The notes under the pieces are model-generated. The model was not told the DNA's origin, made no database searches, and saw only the letters and a program-made list of their open reading frames with translations. The translations under genes were made by a program, and so were the position numbers. From a cyanobacterium endosymbiont of Rhopalodia gibberula (GTDB lineage Bacteria; Cyanobacteriota; Cyanobacteriia; Cyanobacteriales; Microcystaceae), in the NCBI RefSeq assembly GCF_003574135.1, contig NZ_AP018341.1:2269740-2333739 (forward strand): a stretch of 64,000 bases of DNA. The letters run 5' to 3'. Position 1 is the stretch's first letter. Each line of letters opens with the position of its first letter. Below, in pieces: positions 5,725 through 58,451 of this stretch.

Positions 5725-7516
5725 TAAATTTTAATTTAAATTGTTAATTTTTTATAAATTTTATGTAATTTTAATTTTGTTTTTTTACTTAAAATTAAGA
5801 ACATTTCAGTAAAAAATATTTATCTTTGCTTTAACTTAATATAGTTTTTACCTAGTTGATCTCTCGTGCAAGGATTATTTTTTGATAAGCTAATTGAATA
5901 TTAACCAATTTTATTTTTTAAAAAATATCTGCTGATACTTCGCTATGAAGTGTTAATTGACTGATAATTTTTGCGTAAATTTTTATAGTATATAGATTAA
6001 TCTATTTAGTTTTAGCAAAACCTTTTTTACCAAGCTTCTAGCTATTTTATTATTTTTTCAGATGTTTTTGTTTCTATAATTTATACGCTAACCTCTTTAT
6101 ATGAAACAACTGGCACCACATAATAAATTATTTACCTTTTAATTACGGCGATTTTATCAACTACCAATCTTTTCAAGAGTTAAAATTTTTTATATACAAT
6201 TTCTTATCTAAATATATTAGATAGTCCACTTAACTCTTATATGAACTTAATTTATATTAATTACGTCTCATTCGAAGAAAAATAATATTGAAATAGACGT
6301 GGTTCTCGGCTCAATACAAATTACTAATAGTTAATTTATTATTTTGATGTAGTTTTCTGGTGGTTTAACCACAATAAATACAAGTTGCTGTTCAGTCTAT
6401 TTTTTGATGTAAATTTACAATTTTAAATATTTGACTCAATTAAATATTTTATGCTACTAACATAAGTTAAGTTAATATTTCTAGTCTAACATATTTTGTT
6501 TGTTAAACAAAACTTGCTGTAGTAGTGTTTATTTTTTAACTAAAACTTTTGATAAAGCTAATACTAACAATTAAACTTTATCCTTATATTTTTTATATTT
6601 ACATAAGAGGTTCAGTAGAACTAAGATATTAAGTTAACTATATCAATAAAAATAAATTCGCAGTAAGCATTGCCCCTGAGTAGTTGACCGTTAATTTAAT
6701 ATTTTGACTTCCAATCATGGCTTAGATAATTTTTAGAGACTACAGACTATAACCTAAGAAGGTACAAGGACAGTTATTTTTGATCCCAAGTATTGGCCTT
6801 GTTGTCAGATAATTGTGTAATACAATTAGTTTTTAGTGGAATGATAAGAGGAAATTTCGAGAAATGATGGTAAATGTGAAAACCTATTAAGAAAAAGATA
6901 TTGAATGTACCATCACATCTCGTCCTTTTAGCAAAAGTCGAGATGTGGAAAGTTGATGGGTCAATGACAGTGACAAAACGATTGTGAATCAGAAGTTCAA
7001 AACTATTATCGGGAGCATCCCATAGAAAATAAAGCTTTATCAATTTTTTTAAGTAAATTAAATAAATTTAAAGTTAACAACTAATTCCAAGATCTGGATA
7101 AAAAAACTAAATTAATTTTAGAATCTAACAATTCTTTTTCTTTGAATTTAATGATTGCTTAGCAGAAGACTAATAAGTTACGTCCTTGCTTTTGATCAAG
7201 TGATATAAAGACAGTATGAGTATCAAAAATATAGCTCTTGATTTTTAATTTTTTGATGATGTTATGTTATTAATCTGGTGGGTAAACTTTAATTTATAGC
7301 TAAAAATATCACTATTTATTGAGTGTAAAGTTAAAGCTTTGGATTTAATTAAAATACTTACAATTCTTTTGTTAATGGTGAAGATGACATCATTTTCAGT
7401 ATTGATGGCTAAAGCACGACGATATTTAGTGAAATAATAATACGTTTTCTATCATTAATTTTTGTGGGGTTTCTTTGGTATGTCATTACAATTCATGGTG
7501 TAGTCCATAAGACTTT

Positions 7517-7558
7517 AATTTTAGCTAAACTTTTAATTTTAAAAGTTTAGCTAAAATT
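7517..7558. repeat. Perfect 20-bp inverted repeat, 2-nt spacer
   Basis: Arms 7517-7536 and 7539-7558 are exact reverse complements, with only TT between them. No gene lies within 400 bp. It belongs to the group of unrelated long palindromes in this window. Confidence 0.9.
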
Positions 7559-8020
7559 ATATAAAGTGATTGAAACTACATAAGATAAGCTAGCCATTAT
7601 TTCTTCAATCGAGTTTATTTTTTTTGATTATGTTCTCTAAACAAATAACTCTGTAAACGTAGAAAACTTATTTTAGAATAGGTATTCTATGGGTGAAAAT
7701 AAAAATTTATACTAAAATTTATATACCGATTTTTTAAAACTAAAATCAATAGAAATTAACTTAATAAAGTTTGCAAAAAAATATTAATAATTAGAAAAAA
7801 TTAAAATTTAGTCCAAGAATAAATAAACTCTTAACTGTCTAACAATTCAGCTTTGTATTCTACTAATATTTGTGCGACTTACCAAACTTTAGCAGTAAGC
7901 TTGGAACCAAAGTATTCAACGAGATTAACTCAGTTTAAATCCATAAATTAACATTGAGTCGGCAACAGGAACTAAGTTGTTGTAGAATCAGGCTTGAACC
8001 TGTCATTAATGTATTGAAGA

Positions 8021-11948: not shown

Positions 11949-11987
11949 ATCTATATTTTTAGTTTAAAAAAAACTAAAAATATAGAT
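11949..11987. repeat. Perfect 17-bp inverted repeat, 5-nt loop
   Basis: Arms 11949-11965 and 11971-11987 pair exactly around AAAAA. It lies about 90 bp beyond the 3' end of the minus-strand ORF at 12076-12480, so it could serve as that ORF's terminator, but no U tract follows. Confidence 0.85.
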
Positions 11988-34250: not shown

Positions 34251-34286
34251 TAAAATATAGTTAAGTGACTACTTAACTATATTTTA
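34251..34286. repeat. Perfect 16-bp inverted repeat, 4-nt loop
   Basis: Arms 34251-34266 and 34271-34286 are exact complements around GACT. It is one of three palindromes within 280 bp downstream of the moaC remnant. Confidence 0.9.
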
Positions 34287-34484: not shown

Positions 34485-34526
34485 TATCTATATCTTGCTC
34501 TTCTAAAGAAGAGCAAGATATAGATA
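34485..34526. repeat. Perfect 20-bp inverted repeat, 2-nt loop
   Basis: Arms 34485-34504 and 34507-34526 pair exactly with AA between. An ORF of 70 codons on the minus strand across it is a by-product of the palindrome and spacer. Confidence 0.92.
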
Positions 34527-38494: not shown

Positions 38495-38934
38495 GAGTTA
38501 AAAAGTTTATTCGATGAATAACCTTCCAATAATGCAGGCTTTAAAAATTTCTAGTTCTCTAATGAATGATATGAAAGGTTTATTGATTAATATGACAGAT
38601 TGTGATGACAAGAAAATAAACCTAAAACTGGCTAAAATCCCTGTTGTTAGATAACACCTTCTAATCTTTCTTAGAGATAATTTGTGAAGTAAGTTTTAAA
38701 AGTAATGAAAGTCTTGTTTAAATTGAGGTTTAGTTTTTTTGAAAAAATAGAAATTTTTGACATCCTACTCATCTTTATAAATTTTACCAAATCCATGATA
38801 TGGCATTGTTAAAAATCAAAAATAGGAGCAAAAAAACCGATAAAATTAACATTTACTTAAATCTAGAATTCTTAGTCTTAAAATTGAATCATAAGCAGTT
38901 CTATGAATGATACATGGCCAATAATAACATTGCA
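38495..38934. other. Spacer, 440 bp
   Basis: AT-rich, no gene seen, between the Lys-rich protein and the Uma2 remnant. Confidence 0.5.
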
Positions 38935-39200
38935 ATGGAACGCTGTTCAACAGGGGAAATAATTATCATGTCCCCTGTTGGTAACAAGAGTAGAGCAAAA
39001 GAAAGCGAATTATGTTGCCGACTTAAATATCTAGAATCGTCAAATACAACTAGGTGAAGTCTTTAAGTTCTTCAAACGTTTTAAAGTTACCGAGTGGAAA
39101 CTATCACTCTCCTAATGCAGCCTGGGTAAAGCTAGATAATCACAAAGTCAAGACACAGAATAAAAAATTTTCTCCTGTGTCTTGACTTTGTGATTTGACG
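38935..39200 (+). pseudogene. Remnant of a Uma2/DUF820 family endonuclease gene
   Basis: The first frame gives STGEIIIMSPVGNKSRAKES followed by ELCCRLKYLESSNT and TGA. One base over, LGEVF continues, and after another shift SSSNVLKLPSGNYHSPNAAW then VKLDNHKV. This order (EI--MSP-G, GEVF-SS-GF-LP-G, SPDAAWVKLD) is the Uma2 restriction-endonuclease-like fold. The sequence then enters a 21-bp inverted repeat and ends; the PDFVIE catalytic region is only recoverable, shifted, in the right arm. Function is lost. Confidence 0.78.
39138..39195. repeat. Perfect 21-bp inverted repeat inside the Uma2 remnant
   Basis: Arms 39138-39158 and 39175-39195 are exact complements with a 16-nt loop. The loop and the right arm read as the Uma2 -KFSPV--DFVI segment with a small deletion, so at least one arm is ancestral coding sequence. 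It is also terminator-like but lacks a T tail. Confidence 0.9.
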
Positions 39201-39451
39201 CCATTCTAAAAACAATAATTTGAAGTTTCTATAAATAGATATATAAGAATACCTTTCCAGTATTCTTAAGATAGAATTGCTGATCAATTCTTACGGTCAA
39301 AAGACTGAGATCTCCTAAACAAATCGGGACCTAGATATTATGGGTCTCTTTGCTTTTCTTTCAGATAAAAATCTACTACTAGGACAAAACTTGACAGTCG
39401 AATAACATAAGTTAAGTAAAAATGATTGGTTTTTAGAATTCTCTAAGAGTG

Positions 39452-41584
39452 TCAAAGTTGTTGTTTCCTTCGATACCAAGCTCTGACTAACTTAATCTCA
39501 CTGTAGCTGTAATCATCTCCTAAATATTCTTTGATAGGAGTTAGGGTGCTGTCCCCAATTTTCTTGATGGCTTGAACAATAATATTTTGTCTAACTGGAA
39601 GAACCAATTTATCGATATCTACTGGTTGTCTTACTTCAATCAATTCCGAGAGGTGAGAGTAAATGGTACTTTCTTTCAACCCTCGCCTCTTAGCGATTTC
39701 CGCCGTATCCAATCCCTGTTGGTATAGCTGTAAAGTAACCATATTACTTTGGGTCGGTAGAGAATTTATAGAAGTTTGTCCTCGAAAAAACAACCTAATT
39801 TCTAACAAAAATTTCTCTCCATATTGATTGACTTTAAAGTCAGTTACTCCAGAAATTTTGGAGAATTCTTGTATATTTTTAGGTTTTAATTGTGCCATTA
39901 GCTTTAAACTTAAATCGGAAAAAATAACATAGGGAGCTATATTATTACTGTCTGCTAACTGCTTCCTTAAAAGTCTTAATCGATCAAAGAGTAATTCAAT
40001 CTCAGTTGCCACGTATTCATTATCTGTTAAGACTTTTAAGGCTGATTTTTGATTAACTGAAATCTTTACTTTTCTCTGTTTTCTTAAAATTTCCCAACTT
40101 TGTTTATTGAGTTTTAATACTGAAAATCCATCGCTAGTTTCATCTAATAGGTCCTGATGAATTAGAGACCGCCCAAGCATTTTCCATTCAGCTAAACTTT
40201 TATCTTTTCCAATACTATAAGTTGACAAAAGATGATGTCCATATTGTTCAATTTTACGCTTTTTTGATCCTCGTAAGACATCAATAATATGAGTCATGCC
40301 AAATTTTTCATTACAACGGACAACACAAGAGAGAAATTTTTGTGCTTCAATTGTCCAGTCTTCTGTCGGTTTTGGGTTAAGACAATTATCACAGTTACCA
40401 CACTTTCCTAAAAATCTTTCCCCAAAATACCGTAATACAATGGTGCGACGACAGTCAACACCTTCAGCATAGTCTACTACTTGACGTAACTGCTGACGGG
40501 ATACTTTCCTTTCTTGAGAGGAGGTTTTTTGATTAATTATATATTCAATTCTTTTGAGGTCAGATAAACTAAAAAACAAAGTACACTTTGCTGGTTCTCC
40601 ATCCCTTCCTGCCCGTCCTGACTCTTGATAATAACCTTCTAAATTACGGGGTAAATCATAATGAATAACGAAGCGAACATCAGGTTTATCAATGCCCATT
40701 CCGAAGGCAATAGTTGCTACTATCACTTGCACATCATCTCGGATAAAACGGTTTTGATTTAATCGTCTTGTCTGATCATTCATTCCTGCATGATAGGGCA
40801 AAGCCTCAATTCCATCTTTTTGTAAATAAAGGGCAATTTTATCTACTGAACGACGACTCAGACAATAGATAATTCCTGTCCCTTTCTGTCCACGAATATA
40901 GGTCAGTAATGTATTATAACTGTGGCGTTCTTTAGGTTTTACATCGTAGTAAAGGTTAGGACGATTAAAACTAGCAATATGAATTCTTGGCTGTCTCAAT
41001 CCTAACTGTTTGATGATATCTTCTTGCACCCGCTTGGTAGCTGTTGCAGTTAAAGCAAACATAGGAACTTGAGGATAGCATTGACGAAGTTGCTTTAATT
41101 GTCGGTATTCAGGGCGGAAATCATGCCCCCATTCAGACACACAATGAGCTTCATCAATTGCGAAAGCAGAAATACCTATTTTTTGAAAAATAAAACCTAA
41201 AAAAGGGGCAAATTTTTCATTTAATAATCTTTCCGGGGCAATATATAGCAATTTTATTTTGCCATGAACAATTGCTTGTTCACGAGACCGTATTTCTTGA
41301 GAACTGAGACTACTATTAAGAAAAGTTGCCCCAATGCCATTATCTAACAGAGTGTCTACTTGATCTTGCATGAGGGCGATTAAGGGAGAGATTACTACAC
41401 TTAAACCAGGTTTTAGCAAGGCAGGCAGTTGAAAACAAAGGGATTTCCCCCCCCCCGTCGGCATGATTACTAATAAGTCACGATTTTGTAAGGCTTCTTC
41501 GACGATTTTTGCTTGTCCAGGACGAAAACTATCATAACCAAAAAAATGTTTTAAGAACTGTTCGAGAGAATTAGATTGAGACAT
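39452..41584 (-). CDS. recQ: ATP-dependent DNA helicase RecQ
   Basis: RecQ unwinds DNA in recombination and fork repair. The superfamily 2 helicase core has motif [11 protein letters not shown] (about residues 41-50), DEAH in [19 protein letters not shown], and motif [17 protein letters not shown]. The RQC domain has the zinc cysteines ([15 protein letters not shown]). An HRDC domain follows (about 520-600), then a C-terminal helix-turn-helix ([20 protein letters not shown]). At 710 residues it is full length. I take [10 protein letters not shown] (41584) as start; the frame opens two codons earlier. A run of ten C (41447-41456) encodes the motif I glycines. Confidence 0.95.
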
Positions 41585-41707
41585 TATCATAGAAAGAGTC
41601 AGAAGGAGTTACTATTGTTTCTCCCAACACCCCAAGTCAACAAGTTAATTTATTTAAAATGAGCTTTTTTAGCTCTATGTTCTATCCATTATCTTTAATT
41701 TTACCAT

Positions 41708-41759
41708 CGTTAACTAACAAAGCTAATCTGATATATCAGATTAGCTTTGTTAGTTAACG
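41708..41759. repeat. Perfect 52-bp palindrome with no spacer
   Basis: Positions 41708-41733 and 41734-41759 are exact reverse complements (26-bp arms, no loop). Its right end overlaps the stop codon and last codon of the small ORF at 41754-41864. It could act as a terminator for that ORF but no T run follows in that direction. It is the longest perfect palindrome in the window. Confidence 0.95.
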
Positions 41760-51069: not shown

Positions 51070-51115
51070 ACACTCCTAATAAAGCAAATCTGTATTTCTG
51101 CTTGATTAGGAGTGT
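51070..51115. repeat. Inverted repeat inside the nifJ remnant
   Basis: Arms pair over 11 bp (51070-51080 with 51105-51115), then after one A/G mismatch a further 5 bp (51082-51086 with 51099-51103). The right arm lies in the reading that aligns with the NifJ segment before TYGKKGE. Confidence 0.8.
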
Positions 51116-51803: not shown

Positions 51804-51853
51804 ATGGACGATAGTATGGCAGTCACATTTGCGACTGCCATACTATCGTCCAT
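51804..51853. repeat. Perfect 21-bp inverted repeat inside the nifJ remnant
   Basis: Arms 51804-51824 and 51833-51853 are exact complements with an 8-nt loop. The left arm reads DDSMAV where NifJ has GDRMLI; the right arm runs directly into the preserved NifJ motif GDNLPTTP. Both arms therefore derive from nifJ coding sequence. Confidence 0.92.
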
Positions 51854-58398: not shown

Positions 58399-58451
58399 TA
58401 ACACTATTAGAATAATAATGTATTTAAAGCATTATTATTCTAATAGTGTTA
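58399..58451. repeat. Perfect 22-bp inverted repeat, 9-nt loop
   Basis: Arms 58399-58420 and 58430-58451 are exact complements. It lies about 440 bp upstream of tpiA with no gene around. The remaining sequence to 58887 is spacer. Confidence 0.92.

Follow-up and report, generated by a model that had tools for sequence, protein, structure and literature searches.

The perfect palindrome at 39138-39195 lies in the remnant of an Uma2 gene and, judged from alignment with related genomes, its left arm is derived and an older quasipalindrome was thereby made perfect. We consider it very probable that this palindrome is a functionless mutational scar of quasipalindrome template switching, a process that acts genome-wide in non-coding DNA. 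The window, by which we mean the whole stretch of 64,000 nucleotides analysed (C1:2269740-2333739), belongs to the one-contig, low-GC genome of a cyanobacterial endosymbiont of Rhopalodia gibberula, most likely the nitrogen-fixing spheroid body (G000; 3,020,309 bp). It was compared with three similarly reduced genomes of the same genus (G001, 3.07 Mb; G003, 2,794,318 bp; G004, 2.48 Mb), with relatives of free-living size (G002, G005 and G006, the last with a contig of 4,679,413 bp) and with a UCYN-A-like genome of 1,443,806 bp (G013). The features discussed are collected in the table.

Features of the window, with the observations on which each assignment rests
Feature	Position	Strand	Observation
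Palindrome	7516..7559		Left arm nearer relatives, right arm altered; weak alignment
Palindrome	11949..11987		Missing from G001: insertion in window or loss in G001
Palindrome	34251..34286		Right arm rewritten; compared with G001 only
Palindrome	34485..34526		Both sides partly rewritten; compared with G001 only
Uma2 (PF05685) pseudogene remnant, downstream of recQ	about 38851..39378	+	tblastn with intact G006 Uma2, E = 1e-12
Left arm, judged derived in the window's lineage	39138..39158	+	Exact reverse complement of 39175-39195; G001, G003 and G004 differ from it and are mutually similar
Loop, NKKFS of Uma2	39159..39174	+	Translated frames
Right arm, ancestral Uma2 coding DNA, D-F-V-I in shifted frame	39175..39195	+	Kept in G001 and G003 save one or two changes
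recQ, intact; synteny anchor	39452..41590	-	
52-bp perfect palindrome upstream of recQ	41708..41759		Rewritten in the outer left arm and, in part, the inner right arm
Weaker, imperfect palindrome	51070..51115		Most of it missing in relatives
Palindrome in nifJ-like remnant	51804..51853		Left arm ancestral, right arm derived
Palindrome	58399..58451		Left arm nearer relatives, right arm altered

The palindrome is composed of two exact 21-bp arms, AATCACAAAGTCAAGACACAG on the left and its reverse complement on the right, which enclose a loop of 16 nt (AATAAAAAATTTTCTC). When mismatches are allowed, counting inward, the arms extend to 28 nt with a complementarity of 93%. In versions of this DNA generated by a third-order Markov model, arms of 16 bp or longer numbered 0 per 100 kb, which excludes a chance origin. 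The preliminary description, made from the letters of the window, had already reported the exact arms and had read NKKFSPV of Uma2 in the loop; both observations hold, with the refinement that the loop alone gives NKKFS and the remaining residues are encoded where the right arm begins. The right arm also contains GAC-TTT-GTG-ATT (D-F-V-I, as had been claimed) in a shifted frame. The identity of the remnant was established by tblastn with the intact Uma2 of G006 (...RWQGLTEQEQEKFPPLCPDFVIELRS...), which matched the window as listed in the table and the corresponding remnant in G001 with E = 4e-22. Together with this homology, stops and frameshifts mark the region as an Uma2 (PF05685) pseudogene; a PF05685 profile search of the genome at E <= 0.001 missed it.

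Synteny downstream of recQ is kept in G001, G003 and G004, so far as this region is concerned, and the two arms fare differently there. The left arm reads NHKVKTQ in the window and departs from Uma2 (RWQGLTEQEQ in the intact gene, HHSS*TSKQQ in the G001 remnant), and its counterparts in the three relatives are non-palindromic, mutually similar and still alignable with Uma2. The right arm is conserved in the alignment save a few changes. Because the left arm differs in all three relatives and the right arm is conserved, we identify the left arm as the derived one, and because G004, which among the three resembles the window least, agrees with G001 and G003, the change is assigned to the lineage of the window. 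This bears out the earlier proposal that at least one arm is ancestral coding DNA; an unchanged match of the left arm to Uma2 genes, which had been named as evidence to the contrary, was not found in the relatives. The orthologous site in G001, G003 and G004 already carries a bulged quasipalindrome, hence an imperfect repeat was there to be perfected and the left arm is foreign only in part. The changes in the window comprise a 6-nt deletion, single-base indels and substitutions, with exact gap positions that depend on the alignment, and jointly they make the repeat exact, one arm having served as template for the other. Clustered changes that all perfect an older quasipalindrome are the footprint of template switching, and on these grounds the central idea of the preliminary description stands.

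According to this explanation, the dying Uma2 gene would first have carried an inverted repeat with imperfect arms. A strand under synthesis, in replication or repair, would then have folded into the repeat or jumped across it, copied one arm from the other and returned to the normal template, which would remove several mismatches and bulges at once and leave a perfect hairpin. Selection would have left the palindrome in place because the DNA was already non-coding, and the same process would operate wherever these endosymbiont genomes are non-coding. A polymerase template switch in one event probably made the change. Several changes in succession, or repair of hairpin heteroduplexes, would look nearly the same in the sequence, and the changes at this site, clustered on one lineage, fit a single or a stepwise origin alike in the genomes compared. 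The palindrome at 41708-41759, which has no loop, shows rewriting of either arm from the other, and this points to several events or to a hairpin whose repair was mixed.

Quasipalindrome template-switch mutation is established in E. coli reporters (PMC7202029), and the site described here resembles those reporters and the Ripley model in that an imperfect repeat is perfected by clustered changes from the other arm. It differs in that the reporter events were selected, whereas the endosymbiont genomes bear long natural arms at many sites per genome that accumulated in non-coding DNA over evolutionary time. Template switching has also been proposed for the birth of hairpins (PMC8794818), and in that work and in great apes (PMC7954356), as here, reverse-complement copying makes or repairs stems and relatives provide the polarity; those studies concern RNA genes and ape genomes, whereas the present clade consists of bacterial endosymbionts in which such events lie very densely.

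Template switching gains further support from elsewhere in the window, in which eight repeats combine exact arms of 16 bp or more with loops no longer than 30. The third-order Markov model predicts none, and most of the other palindromes look similarly rewritten, in one arm or in a mixed manner, or lineage-specific. The companion case that had been proposed in nifJ proved to be of the same kind with the opposite polarity (51804-51853), the NifJ-like motifs of that remnant being recognised by eye and not by profile. The weaker case noted earlier at 51070-51115 is likewise real, if imperfect.

Direction of change was assessed beyond the window on 97 palindromes for which two sister genomes supplied orthologues. 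The better-conserved arm was 79% identical to the sisters and the worse 62%, compared with 81% and 71% for control non-coding segments (asymmetry p = 1.5e-5). Orthologous arm pairs were 55% complementary, as against 30% in controls and 32% after in silico overwriting of arms at random sites. As 55% pairing could also reflect ancient palindromes decaying in the sisters, polarised changes were counted. Changes unique to the focal genome exceeded the outgroup average 2.12-fold in the worse arm, 1.21-fold in the better arm and 1.08-fold in flanks; the worse arm was picked for its low identity, a choice that partly inflates the 2.12, and the ratio for both arms pooled, with no choice of arm, was 1.68. 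This excess indicates that most palindromes were newly perfected. The derived arm showed no strand bias (25 left, 21 right), replication direction at these sites not being known. A stem of at least 14 bp occurs at the orthologous site in a minority of cases only; in these sequence comparisons the palindromes are mostly lineage-specific, and a minority appear shared and older. A derived arm, a perfected quasipalindrome and the genome-wide pattern together support the earlier view that a common mechanism behind the palindromes is likely.

Palindrome density was estimated from sampled DNA (136-723 kb per genome; exact arms of at least 16 bp, loops up to 30). Per 100 kb, the reduced genomes contained 9.7 (G000), 14.6 (G001), 14.6 (G003) and 10.8 (G004) such palindromes and G013 11.2, compared with 0.2 in G006, 0.0 in G002 and 0.97 in eighty loci of other bacteria; the longest arms in the samples were up to 34 bp. 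Palindromes with arms of at least 14 bp avoid open reading frames, 8 lying inside and 315 outside, with ORFs accounting for about half of the DNA. The enrichment over genes that the preliminary description had predicted is therefore present in the sampled stretches, but the part of the prediction that concerns pseudogenes stays undivided: ORFs of at least 150 codons served as a proxy for intact genes, and the non-ORF class holds pseudogenes and other intergenic DNA together. Presumably such events are purged from genes by selection.

The genome of the R. gibberula spheroid body, probably the one analysed here, was sequenced from amplified DNA (PMC5638926), and inverted chimeras of multiple displacement amplification or assembly could in principle imitate such repeats. 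We regard an artefact of this kind as highly unlikely, since artefacts would avoid neither ORFs (8 versus 315) nor sites that are not already quasipalindromic in relatives, and four genomes agree. Some spheroid body genomes are moreover long-read builds, though not necessarily those compared here.

Intergenic hairpins are commonly terminators, and the palindromes could be intrinsic terminators or hairpins maintained by selection for some other reason. In the four reduced genomes, however, they are just as dense between divergent genes, the distance to gene 3' ends typically runs to hundreds of bases and T-tracts are about as frequent as in controls; most palindromes are not shared, and the window palindrome at 39138-39195 has no T-run on either side. 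Neither this palindrome nor those of the four reduced genomes thus show the terminator arrangement of a T-tract after the stem near a gene 3' end, and selected hairpins are a very improbable explanation for them. G013 is the place where this explanation finds support: its sample (L241-L248) contains many long exact hairpins near gene 3' ends with T-tracts, which are probably unusually long terminators. Because these look like ordinary terminators, G013 is not counted as an independent case.

Dispersed palindromic elements have spread through some reduced genomes, and copies of a mobile or dispersed element could account for numerous hairpins here too. This origin is barely credible for the present set. 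A second copy of the arm sequence was absent from the genome even with up to 3 mismatches allowed, so related copies of the REP or MITE type were not found; the 326 palindromes form just 8 small clusters and are otherwise unrelated; and one arm is ancestral DNA. Spheroid bodies also retain only transposase fragments (PMC11131595).

If template switching made the palindromes, their abundance may have more than one cause. The rate of switching could be ordinary, the excess arising because these genomes retain much old neutral DNA of a kind that free-living relatives delete or constrain. We hold this to be somewhat more probable than not as an account of the excess. It agrees with the near confinement of palindromes to non-ORF DNA, with the share of the four reduced genomes that lies outside long ORFs (about half) and with intact SbcCD and RecJ. 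Per non-ORF base, however, the density is still about 42-fold higher, with 237 palindromes with arms of at least 16 bp in 939 kb of the four reduced genomes versus 1 in 166 kb of G006 and G002 together, an excess that is not decisive since non-ORF DNA differs in age and constraint between genomes. Loss of a repair nuclease was also considered and rejected: SbcC, SbcD and RecJ are kept in the reduced genomes, and ExoVII (XseA) is absent even from free-living-size G006.

The other candidate cause is loss of RNase HII, with unremoved ribonucleotides or RNA:DNA hybrids triggering switching at quasipalindromes, so that rnhB-negative genomes would be mutators. RNase HII (rnhB, PF01351) is absent from G000, G001, G003, G004 and G013, none of which contains an rnhB remnant, and present in the other relatives searched except G023; RNase HI is kept in the four reduced genomes of the genus. 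The same pattern has been reported for Rhopalodian endosymbionts and UCYN-A, where RNase HII was absent from all endosymbionts studied and RNase HI present (PMC12903740). Yeast without RNase H2 shows quasipalindrome mutations, and these fall by a factor of 10 or more once RNase H1 is also removed (PMC3820800); the mutation class is the same, and the symbionts likewise lack the type 2 enzyme, in its bacterial form, and keep type 1. The yeast effect, however, was seen in reporters and requires high transcription, whereas the symbionts offer a correlation only, and among the scar-bearing genomes that correlation amounts to essentially one evolutionary loss. G013 lacks rnhB and yet has terminator-like hairpins, and genome stability is reported to be unaffected by rnhB deletion in M. 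smegmatis (PMC4300193). A causal role of RNase HII loss is accordingly possible but doubtful, and it would be an addition to the template-switch explanation, not a replacement for it. Long retention of neutral DNA is more likely the main reason, and the two are not exclusive. It can be proposed, tentatively and against the odds as we see them, that these lineages would have become quasipalindrome mutators when RNase HII was lost at an early stage of the symbiosis with diatoms, and that template switching would thereby have become a leading source of complex mutations in genome decay; if so, the same scar is to be expected in other symbionts that lack rnhB and are rich in neutral DNA. G023, a 4.8-Mb draft from the same order, also gave no PF01351 match.

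The template-switch mechanism itself is known, otherwise from reporter systems and from alignments in apes and yeast; what is new is its scale in a natural bacterial lineage, together with the RNase HII lead. In the openly licensed literature we found no description of a bacterial lineage whose neutral DNA is filled by long perfect template-switch palindromes, and the openly licensed endosymbiont genome papers searched for the words palindrome, inverted repeat and hairpin mention none of them. A survey of bacterial inverted repeats found, in its available part, that the species with the highest frequencies were more often endosymbionts, in line with the high frequency here (PMC10434271). The survey counts tens per kb, which implies mostly short repeats, and that part of it does not cover ancestry, mechanism or Epithemia. 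The reduced genomes would offer hundreds of polarised natural events from which the rules of template switching could be learned, and the RNase HII correlation names a concrete gene for testing. They also counsel caution, in that hairpins in degraded genomes should not be taken as functional RNA elements.

The Uma2 family as a whole has collapsed in the reduced genomes, with 102 PF05685 matches in the whole genome of G006, 52 in that of G002 and 0-4 in the four reduced ones. Downstream of recQ in G002, just a truncated Uma2 start is left (L115, about 5779-5903). As G002 is of free-living size, decay of this gene may predate the symbiosis, or be independent of it.
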